Positions 7,131 to 27,997 of a DNA stretch of 33,856 bases are shown here, piece by piece. The notes beneath the pieces are model-generated. The model was not told the DNA's origin. It made no database searches and saw only the letters and a list, made by a program, of their open reading frames with translations. Source of the stretch: an uncultured Deferribacteraceae bacterium. GTDB taxonomy: Bacteria; Chrysiogenota; Deferribacteres; CAMZNJ01. The position numbers and the translations under genes are program-made. Each line of letters starts with the position of its first letter. Position 1 is the stretch's first letter. The stretch is taken from positions 1 to 33,856 of the forward strand of contig CAMZNS010000039.1 of NCBI GenBank assembly GCA_947313855.1, read 5' to 3'.

Positions 7131-9122
7131 CTAATTGCAGGGGGGTGGGGGCAGAAACCCCTCCTGGTTGTAGCTTAAAGTTAGGTGAGTGTTTTGCGGA
7201 AGGTCTTTGTATTCTAAAATATTGCAAGCGTCATGGGAATTATTGTAAATAATATAACTAACTTCAGGAACGGTATTATTTTTAATCAGGCTGTTGGAAC
7301 GGGTAACAAAATTGACACGACACGGTTGCCCTGAAATACTCAGACTGCTGAACTTGCTGTTGACGCAAATGGGGAGATCGTGGGGGAGTGCAGACTTAAT
7401 ACGCAAATAGTAGTTCGGTTCCCCGTAAATACGCACATCGCCGTAATCGAATACCTTCGTGTGAAATTTCGCTACTTCGGGGAGGAATCGGTAGCGAAAC
7501 GATGATATTGTACCGCTGTAGTAAACATAACTCTCCCCCGTTGGAGTCAGACCAGCAAACCCCTTGCTACTACCCATATTGTAGAAGACGACGCGAGGAC
7601 TGTTGGAGTACTTGCCAGCAGGGAGATGGGCAGTGTACAGCCCCCACAAGTAAGGGGTCAGGAGGAACATAACCGACAAAATACCGTAACGAGTGAAAAA
7701 TAAACCTGCGGAAACAACATAAATCAACACCAATCCCCATAAAGGGAGGAACGAAACAATAAATAACGGATAGGTGAAGTGGTATAAATAATCCATGGTG
7801 ATGCTGTTTGCACGCTCCAAAAAATACAAACCGGGGAGGATAGCAGGAACAGACAACCATGACGGAGTAAGAAGCATTAACACGCCAAGGAATATCTGAA
7901 GGGTAACAATGGGCGTCAAAGCCAAAGTGGTAAGAACGGAGGCGTAGTTGGTTGTACCAAAACTGTAGAGCTGAATGGGGGTCGTGAAAATGGTGGCGGC
8001 AAGACCAACAAGAACCATAACGTAAGTGGAATGAATCGTGCGAACCAACACGCCAGATGCATTGCGAGCATTACCCCTAGACAGAAACAAAGAGATACCA
8101 AGAACAGCCATGAACGACATCTGAAAACTAGTGTCGAAGATGGCACCCCTATTCCACAAAATGAAAATACCACCCCACAACAATGTGAACGGAACCATAT
8201 AAACACGATAACCCAACAAACGACAAAACATGTACGACAACGCAAACAGAGTCGCGCGGGTAACAGTAACCGAAAACGCACTGAGGGGAATAATCATGGG
8301 AACAAGAACAAGGGCAACAATCTCAAGAAGACGCCAATTCGTAAGACGCCTCGCCAAGAAAAATAAGGCAACCATAATACCAACATGCAAACCAGACTGT
8401 GCCAACAGATGAGACAACCCCGTAACAATGTACATGTCTCGCAAAGGCTCTGGAATGAACGAACGATAACCAAATAGATGTGACTGAGCAGTAAACACCT
8501 CACCACCAGAATCGTAGTACAAACGATTAGCAAGATCGTAACGCTTGCGTAGCAGGTGGCTAACAAGGGGGACGCCTCTGCCTACTACGGTGCTGACGGT
8601 GGTGTTGACGGTGGTGACGGTGCTGACGGTGGTGTTGACGGTGGTGTTGACGGTGGTGTTGACGGTGGTGTTGACGGTGCTGACGGTGGTGTTGACGGGG
8701 CGGAACCGACGACCACTTTTCAGGCGAGTAAACTCGGTGCGACTCCCATCATCAGCCACCATTGCCTCAACGCGAATAGCTTGCCCAACAGACGCCTGAA
8801 CATCCCAATCCCTCGGTACGCGAACCTTCCCGTTAGTGGTGGTCAAAGCGGTGTAGGTTGCTAGCTTTTTGGGTGGCTCGAGGAGGAGGGTGTAGTTGCT
8901 TGTGAGGTATCCCGTGAGGAGTATTAACACCACGACAACCCCGCCGAGACGCAGTCCGAGGGCGTACACAGCTAGGGCGATTATTAGGGGTACGACGATG
9001 GTATTGGCGAGGAGTGTGGGTGCGTGTGTGTAGTCGAGGTAGTGGTCGACGAGTGCTAGGGCAACACAGGCGGTAACCCAGAGGTAGAGTCGGATAGTTG
9101 TGGTGTGTTGGGTTTCGGTCAT
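7131..9122 (-). CDS. comEC: ComEC/Rec2-family DNA-uptake channel with Asn-Thr-Thr repeat insert
   Basis: A 663-residue polytopic protein related to ComEC, the channel that carries single-stranded DNA across the inner membrane in transformation. N-terminal membrane segments (about residues 11-76) lead into an OB-like region. Residues about 143-180 are a VNTT/VSTV repeat with six NTT triplets encoded by a 12-bp DNA repeat. The Competence domain follows, including MYIVTGLSHLLAQSGLHVGI. The C-terminal part begins like the metallo-beta-lactamase domain of longer ComEC proteins (VVFYNMGSSKG) but lacks the zinc-binding HXHXDH motif, so that domain is degenerate. ATG at 9122 lacks a visible Shine-Dalgarno and lies against a 12-bp repeat array. 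The first about 190 codons are A+C-rich and the rest G+T-rich on the coding strand. No other competence gene is in the window. Confidence 0.85.
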   Translation of the reverse strand: MTETQHTTTIRLYLWVTACVALALVDHYLDYTHAPTLLANTIVVPLIIALAVYALGLRLGGVVVVLILLTGYLTSNYTLLLEPPKKLATYTALTTTNGKVRVPRDWDVQASVGQAIRVEAMVADDGSRTEFTRLKSGRRFRPVNTTVSTVNTTVNTTVNTTVNTTVSTVTTVNTTVSTVVGRGVPLVSHLLRKRYDLANRLYYDSGGEVFTAQSHLFGYRSFIPEPLRDMYIVTGLSHLLAQSGLHVGIMVALFFLARRLTNWRLLEIVALVLVPMIIPLSAFSVTVTRATLFALSYMFCRLLGYRVYMVPFTLLWGGIFILWNRGAIFDTSFQMSFMAVLGISLFLSRGNARNASGVLVRTIHSTYVMVLVGLAATIFTTPIQLYSFGTTNYASVLTTLALTPIVTLQIFLGVLMLLTPSWLSVPAILPGLYFLERANSITMDYLYHFTYPLFIVSFLPLWGLVLIYVVSAGLFFTRYGILSVMFLLTPYLWGLYTAHLPAGKYSNSPRVVFYNMGSSKGFAGLTPTGESYVYYSGTISSFRYRFLPEVAKFHTKVFDYGDVRIYGEPNYYLRIKSALPHDLPICVNSKFSSLSISGQPCRVNFVTRSNSLIKNNTVPEVSYIIYNNSHDACNILEYKDLPQNTHLTLSYNQEGFLPPPPCN
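8588..8698 (-). repeat. In-frame 12-bp tandem repeat inside comEC (NTTV units)
   Basis: The plus strand repeats GACGGTGGTGTT with a few single-triplet losses or substitutions (GTGCTGACGG variants). Read on the coding strand the 12-bp unit gives Asn-Thr-Thr-Val, with Ser-Thr-Val variants. Unit length is a multiple of three, so gain or loss of units keeps the frame. Each NTT is also an N-X-T sequon. Confidence 0.95.
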
Positions 9123-16497: not shown

Positions 16498-18000
16498 ATG
16501 AAGATTACCTGCAGAAAGAAGATTGCCGAAACATTTAAAAAAAGTGCACTACTAATACCTGTCTACAAAGGGATAAACCTAAGCGATGAAGTAGTAGGCG
16601 AACACCTAATCAGTGCCATCGAACCCATACTAAACGGCGATGACTTCATCTTCGAAAAAGGGTACACAAGCAGTCTATTCATCGAACTAGGTAACAAAAT
16701 GCGTCGCGTCTACTTAGTCAACGTGCCCAAAGAACCGGGCGAATACCGCGAATACATGGAGATCGGATACGAATTCGCCAAACTAATCAAAAAAGACCGC
16801 GTAAGCGACTTCTCAGTAATCTCTCTCGAAGATATCTACAACGACGACAAAGACCTAATGCACTCCAAATACTTCATAGAAGGGGTGCTAGCAGGATCAT
16901 ACCAGTTCCTAAAATACAACACCAACCCACCAAGCACAACTCTGGAAGAGATCGAAATCATCACATCGCTACCCAAACAGAAAAAATTTGTGGATCAAAT
17001 CTCAAGTGAAATACTCACAACATTCGAAAACATCAACATCCTCAAAGACGCTGTCCTCACCACCTCCAACGAACTCTACCCCATGTCTTACGCCAAAATG
17101 ATGGAAGACATGCTCCCCGACAACATCTCCATGGAAGTAATCGCAAACGACGAACTACTAAACAACAAACTCGAATGCATATACACCGTGGGCAAAGGAT
17201 CGGTCAACAAACCATGCCTTGTCAAAATGCACTACCAAGGGGCACCAAATACTAAAGCCAATATCGCCATCGTCGGCAAAGGGATTACATTCGACACGGG
17301 GGGCGAAAATATCAAATCCATGGCTTCACACATGCACTTCATGAAATCAGACATGACCGGTGCCGCAACCATGTACGCCGTAATACGATCCGCAGCACAA
17401 CTCAAACTCCCCGTAAATATCTACGCATACCTACCATTAGCCGAAAACAAGGTTAGCTCAACATCCATCAACCCCGGCGACATTATCACCGCCGCTAGTG
17501 GCAAAACCATCGAAATACACAACACCGACGCCGAAGGCAGACTGGTGCTAGCCGATGCACTGTTCCTCGCAACACAAACCGAACCGGAAGTTATCATCGA
17601 CATCGCAACACTCACCGGTGGAGTAGTTGTTGCCCTAGGCGAACTCATGGCAGGCTTCTTCGCCAACAGACGTTTCCTCGCAAAATCACTGGAAGACACA
17701 TCGTTCAACATTAGCGAAGATGTTTGGGAGCTACCACTTTACGAACACTACGAAAAACACCTCAAAGGAACACACGCCGACCTACAAAATATCGGACTCC
17801 AAACACTCTCCCAAGGGGGCACAATCTTCTCCGCACTATTCCTCAAGCAGTTTGTGGACAACTACCCTTGGATACACCTTGACATAGCTGGAGTAGGGTT
17901 CACATCCAGCGAACACCCATGGTTGGGCAAAGGTGCAACAGGATTTGGCGTACGATTACTCCTTGAGTTTATCAAAAAAGACTATTTACAGAAGCAATAA
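16498..18000 (+). CDS. pepA: Leucyl/cytosol aminopeptidase, family M17
   Basis: A 500-residue two-metal aminopeptidase releasing N-terminal residues from peptides in the cytoplasm. Metal and active-site motifs are intact: GKGITFDTGG (K261, D266), the aspartate-containing KSDMTGAATM, and NTDAEGRLVLADAL (N342-D344-E346-R348), followed by TLTGGVVVALG. The N-terminal half (about residues 1-190) is divergent, as usual for this family. The frame is open from 16402, but ATG 16498 has GGAG 6 nt upstream, follows the promoter at 16392-16420 and gives the usual length. Coding strand is about 68% A+C where sampled. It lies 35 nt upstream of pglB, so the two are probably co-transcribed. Confidence 0.93.
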   Translation: MKITCRKKIAETFKKSALLIPVYKGINLSDEVVGEHLISAIEPILNGDDFIFEKGYTSSLFIELGNKMRRVYLVNVPKEPGEYREYMEIGYEFAKLIKKDRVSDFSVISLEDIYNDDKDLMHSKYFIEGVLAGSYQFLKYNTNPPSTTLEEIEIITSLPKQKKFVDQISSEILTTFENINILKDAVLTTSNELYPMSYAKMMEDMLPDNISMEVIANDELLNNKLECIYTVGKGSVNKPCLVKMHYQGAPNTKANIAIVGKGITFDTGGENIKSMASHMHFMKSDMTGAATMYAVIRSAAQLKLPVNIYAYLPLAENKVSSTSINPGDIITAASGKTIEIHNTDAEGRLVLADALFLATQTEPEVIIDIATLTGGVVVALGELMAGFFANRRFLAKSLEDTSFNISEDVWELPLYEHYEKHLKGTHADLQNIGLQTLSQGGTIFSALFLKQFVDNYPWIHLDIAGVGFTSSEHPWLGKGATGFGVRLLLEFIKKDYLQKQ

Positions 18001-18035: not shown

Positions 18036-20288
18036 ATGAAATGGATAGACAGCAAGCTAGACATGTTTACAGGTTATTTCTCCAAATACAGTGTTGCAAC
18101 AAGCTATTTGAAAATGCCTAGGCGATACAACATCCTCCTCGGTATCGTTGCCATCGCCATGGTATTTGCCATTGTACTACACTATCGCTGGGAGCAACTT
18201 TCACCATGGTTGGAAGACAAAAACCCAGCATTTTATGTGGACAACGACACACCTATTCTAGGCACACTAGACTCCTACAAGTGGATTCGGTACACTGAAG
18301 AGGTGCGAGACGGAACGTACGAACCTCTCACCAACGATCCGATCATGTACTACCCCGACGGCTGGGAGCGTCCTAAAGTTACCCCCCTCATCGCACACCT
18401 GAACCTAGCCTTAGCATCGGTGTTGCCAGATACAGACAACTTCCACATGCGGGACAATATCTACTTCTCTGCGTTAATCCTTACTCCCATTTTGGGTTCG
18501 ATGATAGTTGTGGTATCCATCCTTTGGGGGATGAGTATCGGCTACTTACCTTTGGGGATTTTGGCGGCGATAACAGGCTCCTACGCCCCAATGTTCTATT
18601 TGCGATCCACGTCGGGGCGTTTTGATACCGATCTGCTCAACGTATTCTTCCCCATGTTAATTGCGATTTTCATATCGTTAATCCCCATGAGTGCTCGTTA
18701 CAGGCGTGATCATGATGGCGAGGCAGTCCATGATTCGAAAGCCTCTGGTATCGGTATGGCAATGATGGGTATTTTTGGCAGACTAGAGCCCTACAGCCCC
18801 TACATATATTCTGCATTAGCAGGGTTCTCCACACACCTCCTCTACCTTTGGTACGAGCATCAGATATTCAACTTAATCTATGCTGTCATACTATTTTTGT
18901 TCCTAGTATTCTCACGCTATCACCTGAAAGAGATACTTATCAGTTTGGGGCTTTTCATACTATTTGCTAATCCGTTTGTAGTGTTTGCAGGTATTAGTTC
19001 TTTTGTGGAGCTCTCTTACATCTACCTATTCAATAAGGATCTGTCCACATCGGCATTCCCCAATGTTTACAACACAATATCCGAAGCCATCAAACAGACC
19101 ACACCTGAGGTTATGTCTGCCTACTATTTCAATGGCTTCTTTGTTGTCGTCGGTACGGCAGGGTTCTTGCTGTTCGCACTTGGCAACATGCGTTACGCAT
19201 TGCCCCTCATGCCCCTTTTGGCACTAACTGCCCTCGGATTCCTATCCTCGCCACGTTTTACAATGTACGGCGGTCCACTCATAGGTATCGGATTCGGCTA
19301 CATCATGCTGCTAGCAATCAGATACCTACCCATCGACATCGAACAACGCCTGACAAATATGTTTGGTCGACTAGGCAAGCAGGTTACCAGCGTTGTGTAT
19401 CTAGGTGCGACAACACTTGTGGGGGTGGTACTGTTTATCCCTGCTTTAGGTATGATTACCAGCGTCAAACCCACAACATCCATACCACCTGAGATATTCC
19501 AAGTGTACGAAGACATGAAAATGAAGAACATCATACCGGAGGGGAGTGCCATCTACACATGGTGGGATTACGGCTTGGTCATCGAAGAGTACCTGAAAGA
19601 CAAAAGCTTCCACGACGGCATGAGCCAAAGCTCGCCCAAAACATATTTCGTCGCACGGAGCATGGTCTCTAGCTCACAAGACGAAATGTACAACATCATC
19701 TCCTACCTCAGCAACAACGGGATGACAAACATCAACCGGTCCATTGCGTCGAAAACACCAACACAAGATATCATCGACAACGTACTCGGATACGACCAGA
19801 ACCTCAACCAAGACGACATTTACCTCATGTACACCGCCGACATGATCGGTAAATTTGGTGCCATACAGTTCATCGGCAACTACGATATCGCAAACAAACA
19901 GGCACGCTACCTGCAAGCATCACGCATACCATGCTCAACATCACCGCAAGATGGGGAATACGTATGTGCAGGCTCATCAAAACTCAGCCTCAACTCCTTC
20001 TCCATCAGCACCCCAGGGGCAGGGGTACTGCTCATCAAAGACCTGTACATCGTCAATGCCATCGACGGAACAACCAAACAGGTATCCACACCATTCAACA
20101 ACGGCGTGGGTGCCATACTCATGGAAACACCTTGGGGATCGGAACTAACAATAGCCGAAGATGGCTACATCAATAGCAACCTCATACAAATGTTCCTCTT
20201 GGGCAATTACGACCACAACCTATTCGAACTTGTGGCACACTACGGTACTGTTGCTAAAGTGTACAGGGTGCTCCCGCAACGTAAGTAG
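18036..20288 (+). CDS. pglB: STT3/PglB-type oligosaccharyltransferase
   Basis: A 750-residue membrane enzyme of the STT3 family, which transfers a lipid-linked glycan to asparagine on the outer face of the inner membrane. About a dozen membrane helices fill residues 35-475, followed by a soluble C-terminal domain. Family motifs are intact: the first acidic motif LDSYKWIRY (D79), SGRFDTDLL with D197-X-D199 closely matching SGYYDTDML of Campylobacter PglB, TISE with E350 in the external loop (TIXE in bacterial enzymes), and the WWDYG signature (W509-G513). ATG 18036 is preferred over TTG 18015. It is probably co-transcribed with pepA. No flippase, glycosyltransferase or sugar-nucleotide genes lie nearby, so the glycan must be made elsewhere. 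An O-oligosaccharyltransferase or mannosyltransferase is excluded by the WWDYG and TISE motifs. Confidence 0.93.
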   Translation: MKWIDSKLDMFTGYFSKYSVATSYLKMPRRYNILLGIVAIAMVFAIVLHYRWEQLSPWLEDKNPAFYVDNDTPILGTLDSYKWIRYTEEVRDGTYEPLTNDPIMYYPDGWERPKVTPLIAHLNLALASVLPDTDNFHMRDNIYFSALILTPILGSMIVVVSILWGMSIGYLPLGILAAITGSYAPMFYLRSTSGRFDTDLLNVFFPMLIAIFISLIPMSARYRRDHDGEAVHDSKASGIGMAMMGIFGRLEPYSPYIYSALAGFSTHLLYLWYEHQIFNLIYAVILFLFLVFSRYHLKEILISLGLFILFANPFVVFAGISSFVELSYIYLFNKDLSTSAFPNVYNTISEAIKQTTPEVMSAYYFNGFFVVVGTAGFLLFALGNMRYALPLMPLLALTALGFLSSPRFTMYGGPLIGIGFGYIMLLAIRYLPIDIEQRLTNMFGRLGKQVTSVVYLGATTLVGVVLFIPALGMITSVKPTTSIPPEIFQVYEDMKMKNIIPEGSAIYTWWDYGLVIEEYLKDKSFHDGMSQSSPKTYFVARSMVSSSQDEMYNIISYLSNNGMTNINRSIASKTPTQDIIDNVLGYDQNLNQDDIYLMYTADMIGKFGAIQFIGNYDIANKQARYLQASRIPCSTSPQDGEYVCAGSSKLSLNSFSISTPGAGVLLIKDLYIVNAIDGTTKQVSTPFNNGVGAILMETPWGSELTIAEDGYINSNLIQMFLLGNYDHNLFELVAHYGTVAKVYRVLPQRK

Positions 20289-20672: not shown

Positions 20673-22058
20673 ATGAAAAAAATTAACTTCAACATCATAC
20701 CTCTCACAGGTATGATACTTCTAACAATCACAATGGCGATCCCAACCATATCTATGGCGAAAGCAACAACCTTGCCAAAATCAGACGTGGAAGCACTATT
20801 CAAAAACGGGGTAGCACTCAAAAGCTACCAACAAGTCAAATACGGCTCAAAAGACTACTTCGTCCTAAAACAATCGAAAGCATCCTGTGCCCTAGCCACA
20901 GAAGTAGCATACGACAAACCCTACACAATCCTAGGGGGCACATACCTACGACTCAGCCATACCAAAAACTTTGTCCAAACAGGTGACGCAAGCTGGTACG
21001 GACCAGACTTCCACGGAAAACTCACCGCAAACGGCGAAACCTACAACATGTACGACATGACGGCAGCACACAAAACTCTACCCATGGGTACACGAGTGGA
21101 AGTCACAAACCTCGATAACAACAAAAAAGTTGTGGTAAGAATCAACGACAGAGGACCATTCAAAGACGGACGAATCATCGACCTAACAAAAGTCGCAGCA
21201 AACAAAATCGGAATGCTAGGATCGGGAACAGCAAACGTAATGATCAAAACCGTGGGCACACCAACATACGTCGTCAACGCATACCACCCACTACTAGCAT
21301 CCATCAACGATGCTGACGAATCGTTCTGTGCCGGCGGGATTATCGTGCCCGAATCAACCGACCTGAACAAAGGAGCCGTTACACCCAAAATCCTAACAGC
21401 AGAAAACACGATCACCAAAGAGGCTATTACGGGTACGGGGGGGGTAGTGGAATACAACCCTGCAGCGATTGTTCCCATGGTGGCGACTGCACCTGTGGCG
21501 ACTGCACCTGTGGCGACCGAGCCTGTGGCGATTGCACCTGTGGCGATTGCACCTGTGGCGACCGAGCCTGTGGCGATTGCACCTGTGGCGATTGCAGATG
21601 AGGTTTTGCCCATGTCGGAGCCCATGGCTGTTGTTGATAGTGCTGAGGCAAACAGTTCTGACACCGATGTAGCGACTGAGCCCGTGGCAACTGAGCCTGT
21701 GGCAACTGAGTCCGTAGCGACCGAGCCTGTTACGATTGCACCTGTGGCACTTGAGCCTATGGCGACTGAGGTGCCAGTTGAGCAGAGTACCAGCATTGAC
21801 GGTAGTTCCAATTGGAAGAGCTACTCTGGTGATGTGTCGGGTAAGTATGGTATTCAGTTGGGTTCGTTTAGCCAACTTTCCAATGCGATAAAGCTTGCAG
21901 ATGTTGTTGATGGTTCTAAGGTTGTTGACATTTGGGTTTCTGATTCCATCTATTCACGTGTTATTATCGATGGTTTTGCGACACGTGCTGATGCGAAGTC
22001 GAGCTTGAAGGTTATTAAGAAAGATTATCCAAAGGCTTTCATAGTTTCGTTACAATAG
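20673..22058 (+). CDS. rlpA: RlpA-like septal-ring lytic transglycosylase with DPBB and SPOR domains
   Basis: A 461-residue exported protein. A signal peptide (residues 1 to about 30, ending SMAKA) precedes a double-psi beta-barrel (about 103-195) with GDASWYGPDFHGKLTANGE and the catalytic pair H133 (AAHKTLP) and D159 (NDRGPF), so glycan-strand cleavage activity is plausible. Residues about 265-370 are a low-complexity Pro-Val-Ala-Thr/Ile-Glu/Ala linker. The last 75 residues (KYGIQLGSFSQ onward) form a SPOR domain, which binds denuded septal peptidoglycan. Some RlpA proteins are lipoproteins; I see no lipobox cysteine here. The linker contains E325-A-N327-S-S329, an extended bacterial N-glycosylation sequon, next to the pglB gene. 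An eight-G tract at 21437-21444 precedes the linker. Shine-Dalgarno is weak (GGGTG). Confidence 0.9.
   Translation: MKKINFNIIPLTGMILLTITMAIPTISMAKATTLPKSDVEALFKNGVALKSYQQVKYGSKDYFVLKQSKASCALATEVAYDKPYTILGGTYLRLSHTKNFVQTGDASWYGPDFHGKLTANGETYNMYDMTAAHKTLPMGTRVEVTNLDNNKKVVVRINDRGPFKDGRIIDLTKVAANKIGMLGSGTANVMIKTVGTPTYVVNAYHPLLASINDADESFCAGGIIVPESTDLNKGAVTPKILTAENTITKEAITGTGGVVEYNPAAIVPMVATAPVATAPVATEPVAIAPVAIAPVATEPVAIAPVAIADEVLPMSEPMAVVDSAEANSSDTDVATEPVATEPVATESVATEPVTIAPVALEPMATEVPVEQSTSIDGSSNWKSYSGDVSGKYGIQLGSFSQLSNAIKLADVVDGSKVVDIWVSDSIYSRVIIDGFATRADAKSSLKVIKKDYPKAFIVSLQ
21478..21775 (+). repeat. In-frame 15-bp repeats inside rlpA (PVATE/PVAIA units)
   Basis: Two blocks of GCACCTGTGGCGACT-like 15-mers (about eight copies in 21478-21595, about six more degenerate ones in 21670-21775) encode Pro-Val-Ala-X-X units. 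The unit length keeps the frame. They form the linker between the DPBB and SPOR domains, a place where length variation should be tolerated. Confidence 0.93.
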
Positions 22059-26999: not shown

Positions 27000-27061
27000 C
27001 ATAACGGTATTGACGCAACGGTATTAACGTCGCATTATGGCGATTAGTGAGGCGTGCGAGT

Positions 27062-27997
27062 ATGGCAGGAATACAGATAAATCAAGGTGAAGGGTATCGA
27101 TACAACGAGGACTCTATCCTACTGTCACATTTTGCCGCCACCGCCATGGGATTTTTGCCGAAGAGGGATGCTACACTGCCAAGACCACAAGCCACCATGG
27201 TTGATATGGGTGCAGGGGGTGGTGTGATTGCGATTATACTCGGTTGTGTTGCCCGCGAGTTCGCCAACACCGCCAACACCGCCAACACCGCCAACACCGC
27301 CAACACCGCCAACACCGCCAACACCGCCAACACCGCCAACACCGCCAACACTAGCGGGGGGCTACACATCCATGCCATCGAACTGCAACAAGGGCTCTAC
27401 AACACCCTAACGGAAAACATCCGCCTCAACATGGCAACAGGCACACTGCGTCATGGTAGTGTTGTGCCTATTTTGAGCGGGGTAGGGGAGTTCTCGCCAG
27501 CGAAAATCCCCAACGGAACAAACACCTCCGTGGATGCCAACGGCTGTCTCTACGATTATGCTGTATGCAATCCGCCCTACTACCCTGCAAGCAGGGGCCG
27601 CATACCCGCAAATACCACCAAGGCGATTGCATGTTTTAGTGGCGAAGGGTTCGGTATGGGCTTGAGTGATATCTTCCGATTTGGCAAAAAATATGTACGC
27701 CACAACGGAATACTATTCATGTCGTACCCCAGCGTCTACCTCCACGACGCCCTTAGCGTAGCACGCAAGTACGGCTTTGAAGTGAAAAACATTCGCTTTG
27801 TCCACGAAAACACCATGTCGGTTGCTGGTATTGTCCTCATGGAGTTTGTGAAGGGGGGTGTCACCGGATTATCTGTTATGCCCCCGCTGATAAAAATGAC
27901 GACCACTCTAGACTCGCAAACCACTGTGGACTCGCAAACAACACAAGATTTTCGCCAAATCTACACCGATATTTTTATTGAAAGTGTGCCGTTGTAG
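27062..27997 (+). CDS. TrmN6-like tRNA1(Val) adenine-N6 methyltransferase
   Basis: A 311-residue SAM-dependent methyltransferase. INQGEGYRYNEDSILLSHF matches the N-terminus of the YfiC/TrmN6 family. VDMGAGGGVIAIIL is motif I, HAIELQQGL the acidic loop, and VCNPPYYP the NPPY catalytic motif of N6-adenine methyltransferases. The E. coli enzyme modifies A37 of tRNA1(Val); related HemK/PrmC enzymes modify glutamine, so the exact substrate is inferred. Ten Ala-Asn-Thr units are inserted between motif I and the next strand. I choose ATG 27062 (GAGG upstream) over GTG 27047. The gene follows the ATPase gene after a 62-bp gap with a three-copy AACGGTATTGACG-like repeat (about 26990-27030). Confidence 0.85.
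   Translation: MAGIQINQGEGYRYNEDSILLSHFAATAMGFLPKRDATLPRPQATMVDMGAGGGVIAIILGCVAREFANTANTANTANTANTANTANTANTANTANTSGGLHIHAIELQQGLYNTLTENIRLNMATGTLRHGSVVPILSGVGEFSPAKIPNGTNTSVDANGCLYDYAVCNPPYYPASRGRIPANTTKAIACFSGEGFGMGLSDIFRFGKKYVRHNGILFMSYPSVYLHDALSVARKYGFEVKNIRFVHENTMSVAGIVLMEFVKGGVTGLSVMPPLIKMTTTLDSQTTVDSQTTQDFRQIYTDIFIESVPL
27263..27352 (+). repeat. Ten-copy 9-bp repeat inside the methyltransferase gene
   Basis: Ten tandem copies of GCCAACACC, nearly perfect (only the last base of the last unit differs), encode (Ala-Asn-Thr)x10. Because the unit is nine bases the frame survives changes in copy number. It sits in the loop after motif I, where the insert should project from the fold. Confidence 0.97.

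Follow-up and report, generated by a model that had tools for sequence, protein, structure and literature searches.

An oligosaccharyltransferase gene standing alone among housekeeping genes raises the question of whether its product still N-glycosylates proteins and, if so, where its glycan comes from. The gene in question lies on a 33,856-nucleotide stretch of DNA, analysed here as a whole and called the window, which the sequence-only reading had tentatively ascribed to a spirochaete. That origin is rejected: the bacterium belongs to the Deferribacterota and lives as a symbiont in the midgut of the vent shrimp Rimicaris (PMC9636832, PMC12887300). As to the exact strain, we infer that the genome is that of Candidatus Rimicarispirillum atlantis (PMC12887300) or of a strain of it. 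The genome is reduced (1,343,155 bp in 49 contigs), and its closest named relative, M_SnakePit_MAG_00002, whose STT3 is 92% identical, has been named Candidatus R. nautilei in a study that describes the symbionts of Rimicaris shrimps as long cells among the midgut microvilli (PMC9636832). Two MAGs of the genus Rimicarispirillum were available, this genome (90.7% complete) and that of a sister species (86% complete); beyond the window, this genome was covered by searches and by selected regions.

The STT3 gene occupies positions 18036..20288 of the plus strand, starts with the ATG at 18036 and runs stop-free over 750 amino acids, with no comparable frame found on the opposite strand of the locus. 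The motifs SGRFDTDLL, TISE and WWDYG, on which the gene had been called an oligosaccharyltransferase, were read directly in the translation, and Pfam, phmmer and an alignment of 26 STT3s agree with them. The motif set comprises the catalytic aspartate D79 in TLDSY of the first external loop (18270..18272), the DxD motif D197-T-D199 in SGRFDTD (18624..18632), TISE with E350 in external loop 5 (19074..19085), the sequon-binding WWDYG at residues 509-513 (19560..19574) and M603-xx-K606-xxx-I610 at the place of the MI/DK motif (19842..19865), all on the plus strand, as well as R407. Most motif residues were invariant or nearly so among the 26 homologues, T77, D79, R190, G194, D199, E350, R407, W509, W510 and M603 being strictly invariant. 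The protein scored above the Pfam cut-offs for both the STT3 N-terminal domain (PF02516, 53.3 bits, cut-off 24.5) and the STT3-PglB core (PF21436, 28 bits, cut-off 23), and residues 147-745 matched C. lari PglB (3rce) by phmmer (E 5e-15).

An AlphaFold2 model, built with an alignment of Deferribacteres homologues (pLDDT 85, pTM 0.84), showed a GT-C membrane domain and a periplasmic domain with the PglB fold. Its top PDB matches by Foldseek were three PglB structures (E 8.9e-28), followed by eukaryotic and archaeal oligosaccharyltransferases, and VIA aligned nearly the whole chain with PglB 6gxc (Z 30.8, rmsd 4.1, 637 aligned). Profile scores and predicted fold confirm membership of the STT3/PglB/AglB family, and the earlier assignment to the catalytic subunits of N-oligosaccharyltransferases is upheld by domains over cut-off, a full motif set and a predicted PglB fold. 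Cys633 and Cys644 in the periplasmic domain, a nearly invariant pair in Deferribacteres STT3s with no counterpart in the aligned stretch of C. lari PglB, may form a lineage-specific disulfide.

Between the two sister species, the dN/dS of STT3 was 0.072, in the same range as that of pepA (0.064) and rluA (0.077), and the gene is under strong purifying selection. This bears on whether STT3 could be a relic without substrate, heading for loss as the genome shrinks. The reduced genome and the failure of our MAG searches to find a full lipid-linked oligosaccharide pathway would fit such a fate, but the frame is intact, the catalytic residues are invariant and the dN/dS is that of housekeeping neighbours, which speaks against a relic and makes this reading highly improbable.

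The gene had been described as lying outside any glycosylation gene cluster and tied to a peptidase gene, and both statements hold: its neighbours in the window are polA, rluA, pepA, rlpA and miaB, and pepA, encoding an M17 leucyl aminopeptidase (16498..18000, longest ORF from 16402, plus strand), is directly upstream and co-directional. In 21 of the 30 nearest genomes, belonging to four families (f1, f2, f7 and f8), pepA is likewise followed on the same strand by an adjacent STT3, with gaps between the ORFs of -20 to +45 bp. Nine further genomes showed the pair by coordinates (G030, G032, G033, G034, G035, G040, G041, G044 and G045), so that it is present in at least 30 of 47 Deferribacteres genomes; an STT3 off-cluster beside a peptidase is thus normal here, and the arrangement suggests co-transcription of the two genes. 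Families f3-f6 have STT3 away from pepA, and in G005, G008 and G017 it is clustered with PglC and PglF, joined in G017 by a PglE-like aminotransferase. A search of 147 genomes gave no pepA-STT3 pair outside the class among the matches listed, including those in G060 and G146, two non-class genomes with an STT3 match. A literature search on a link between pepA and oligosaccharyltransferases found nothing relevant. Short tandem repeats that keep the reading frame (NTTVNTTV, VAIAPVAT, NTANTA, VADGVADG) are carried by many coding genes, at 7131-9122, 20673-22058 and 27047-27997 of the window and at L072:16343-17527, and may make these genes vary in length from strain to strain.

The pepA locus of some relatives holds a different kind of STT3. 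Seven f2 genomes have a short form there, of 530-582 amino acids by ORF (L090:6391-7983 in G014, L105:6881-8506 in G018, L102 in G012, L099 in G003, L106 in G019, L100 in G007 and L112 in G026), and it is the sole STT3 found in each of them except G018. The sequon motif of these proteins is degenerate (HWNYG, QWDNG, GWDHG, VWDNG, LWDNG) and the C-terminal domain is shrunken, with the DxD, the first aspartate and the glutamate retained. A Pfam scan of three of them gave no match, and a model of the G014 protein (pLDDT 75) aligned with PglB at Z 25.7.

These short forms raise the possibility that an STT3-fold enzyme at this locus has had its acceptor or job moved from general N-X-S/T glycosylation toward the peptidase and cell-wall neighbourhood. 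The coupling to pepA is kept while the sequon pocket degenerates in one branch; moreover, rlpA, in the window a gene for an RlpA-family septal lytic transglycosylase with a SPOR domain (20673..22058, plus strand), lies a few genes downstream of the pair in several relatives, and relatives have a PBP gene nearby as well. Against this, the window STT3 retains WWDYG, TIxE and a full C-terminal domain, and STT3 sits away from pepA in families f3-f6. M17 aminopeptidases are, in addition, cytosolic, so that the coupling may be mere co-transcription. We consider such a shift of function very unlikely for the window protein.

STT3 was encoded in all 30 nearest genomes, and an oligosaccharyltransferase is thus a normal component of Deferribacterota. 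In a maximum-likelihood tree the Deferribacteres STT3s all grouped apart from the two Campylobacterota sequences included, with uncertainty over the deep branching order and the long branches. The statement that characterised bacterial enzymes come mostly from Campylobacterota, with some from Desulfovibrio, was incomplete, since Deferribacterota enzymes have already been studied (PMC6025236, PMC11164674): that of Deferribacter desulfuricans is cited as characterised (PMC6025236, citing Mills 2016), and in a cell-free assay the enzymes of Mucispirillum schaedleri and Flexistipes sinusarabici failed to transfer any of the glycans on offer (PMC11164674). Bacterial N-oligosaccharyltransferases are therefore a class-wide trait of Deferribacterota, one that has persisted here although the genome has contracted to 1.34 Mb. 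The cluster-free placement of most of them hides them from searches based on pgl clusters. A Flexistipes-like genome (G017) also contains STT3 fragments about 9.6 kb apart with inserted genes between them (L116, C1:2042001-2062000), a broken second oligosaccharyltransferase.

The proposal that the glycan genes lie elsewhere in the genome stood in part: GT2 glycosyltransferases, a weak Wzx-like flippase candidate and sugar-nucleotide genes are present, whereas an initiating phosphoglycosyltransferase, a GT4 enzyme and a dehydratase of PglF length were found in neither Rimicarispirillum MAG. A lipid-linked oligosaccharide pathway was thus only half recovered, from MAGs that are 86-91% complete. 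Contigs C25 and C40 each end in tandem GT2s of 415 amino acids, and a 558-bp stretch shared by the two ends at 94.6% identity marks them as repeated copies or strain variants of a single locus; tandem GT2s are kept in both Rimicarispirillum genomes. The Wzx-like protein (419 amino acids) is the last gene of contig C17 and matched at 20-22 bits, below the Pfam cut-off. No GT4 glycosyltransferase of PglA/H/J type was found in the Rimicarispirillum genomes other than GlgA, the single PF00534/PF13692 match, which was rejected as a pgl enzyme for that reason. The PF02719 protein, considered as PglF, proved to be PseB in a pse cluster; the genome holds PseB and PseC equivalogs and a PseG-like protein, and in place of a PglF-length dehydratase (about 600 amino acids) only the PseB-type protein of 339 amino acids and a distant epimerase were found. 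The Pse proteins more likely work toward a different glycan, for instance pseudaminic acid on flagellin.

A cluster on contig C9 with an ABC exporter and two GT2s was also considered as a pgl cluster and assigned instead to lipid A/core LPS, consisting of MsbA, two GT2-GT9 fusions and LpxK. The exporter, the only one of PglK type, scored higher as MsbA (477 bits) than as PglK (236 bits) and adjoins lpxK; the fusions are adjacent proteins of 810 and 699 amino acids that join a GT2 to a GT9 (heptosyltransferase) between msbA and lpxK (L072:11819-16350). Directly upstream of this msbA/LPS cluster are SU10-like phage genes for portal and major capsid proteins (L072:5102-9789), a prophage remnant or an integrated phage. 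No WaaL/O-antigen ligase was found in the genome.

The most conspicuous gap concerns the first step of glycan assembly. A PglC-type transferase (PF02397) was present in 21 of 30 genomes, and profile searches found none in the two Rimicarispirillum MAGs, each of which has a single PF00953 protein. The copy in this genome, considered as WecA, was rejected as such: it is MraY (386.8 bits to mraY), and its neighbours, judged by eye, look like mur genes. All 28 other Deferribacteres have an initiator besides MraY, a second PF00953 protein being counted as non-MraY by number alone (G015, whose PF02397 match is a fragment, has such a second protein), and these two MAGs are the only ones of the 30 in which none was found. 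The absence is only suggestive, since contigs break off at candidate glycan genes and neither MAG is complete (90.7% and 86%). For two incomplete MAGs, the simplest and most likely explanation is that the assemblies missed the stretch encoding the initiator.

The alternative is that the symbiont truly lost every known initiating phosphoglycosyltransferase and that its oligosaccharyltransferase relies on an atypical donor, such as a polyprenyl-linked glycan begun by a GT2-type or unrecognised enzyme, a reading that we find unlikely as a whole. It draws on the agreement of both genus MAGs, which lack PF02397 and whose PF00953 protein is MraY only, against a further enzyme in 28 of 28 others; on the GT2s being the sole candidate glycan builders apart from the GT2-GT9 fusions; on the strong selection that still acts on STT3; and on the low chance, about 1.3% if gaps fall independently at 90.7% and 86% completeness, of missing the gene in both assemblies. 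Such gaps are not independent, however: contigs of this genome end at candidate glycan genes, and near-identical tandem GT2 copies there break assembly, so that an adjoining initiator gene could be missing from both MAGs. We would accordingly give little credence to the fuller proposal that the symbiont N-glycosylates without a known initiator or GT4, from a minimal GT2-built or unknown lipid-linked donor, with a pepA-coupled oligosaccharyltransferase as the indispensable core in Deferribacterota. If the lack were real, it would pose a testable question, that of the enzyme's lipid-linked donor at an animal gut interface.

Sequence and model together point, with good probability, to an intact and selected single-subunit N-oligosaccharyltransferase of a Deferribacterota lineage, whose initiating sugar-phosphate transferase is most likely encoded in unassembled sequence. 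The enzyme would act at the periplasmic face of the inner membrane, where D79, D199 and E350 would bind the metal and activate the acceptor asparagine, the WWDYG pocket would hold the +2 Ser/Thr of an N-X-S/T sequon, and an oligosaccharide would be moved from a polyprenyl-diphosphate carrier to envelope proteins. In pairwise alignment Tyr363 takes the place of C. lari Arg331, which is one determinant of the -2 acidic rule and not the sole one (PMC4894442), making a relaxed sequon plausible. The tandem GT2s at the C25 and C40 ends probably assemble a short glycan, which the Wzx-like protein at the C17 end may flip. Two features stand out, the conservation of the pepA-STT3 pair and, in a symbiont with a reduced genome, the puzzle of the donor.

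Among known systems, the short archaeal AglB (AfAglB-S2, 3vu0) has a C-terminal domain like that of the short STT3s of relatives (Z 14.1), and the window protein differs from both in its full PglB-size C-terminal domain. The enzymes of D. desulfuricans, F. sinusarabici and M. schaedleri resemble it in lineage and motifs, at about 30% identity; the genomes that correspond to those species (G016, G017 and G013), however, have STT3 away from pepA and possess a PglC-type and/or second PF00953 transferase, in contrast to the Rimicarispirillum MAGs. Compared with the Campylobacter pgl system, the window STT3 lies outside a pgl cluster, and neither PglC or a non-MraY initiator, nor PglF, nor GT4 was found in this 90.7% complete genome. 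Identity to Campylobacter PglB is about 20%, Tyr363 aligns with C. lari Arg331, K606 stands where the MI motif has Ile, and the score to the NCBIfam PglB equivalog NF050801 (68.6 bits against a cut-off of 1300) marks a distant homologue rather than a Campylobacter-type PglB. Nevertheless, the predicted fold is shared over nearly the full length with C. lari and C. jejuni PglB (5ogl, 6gxc, 3rce; Z about 31), and both are single-subunit enzymes with the same catalytic aspartate, DxD, glutamate and WWDYG.
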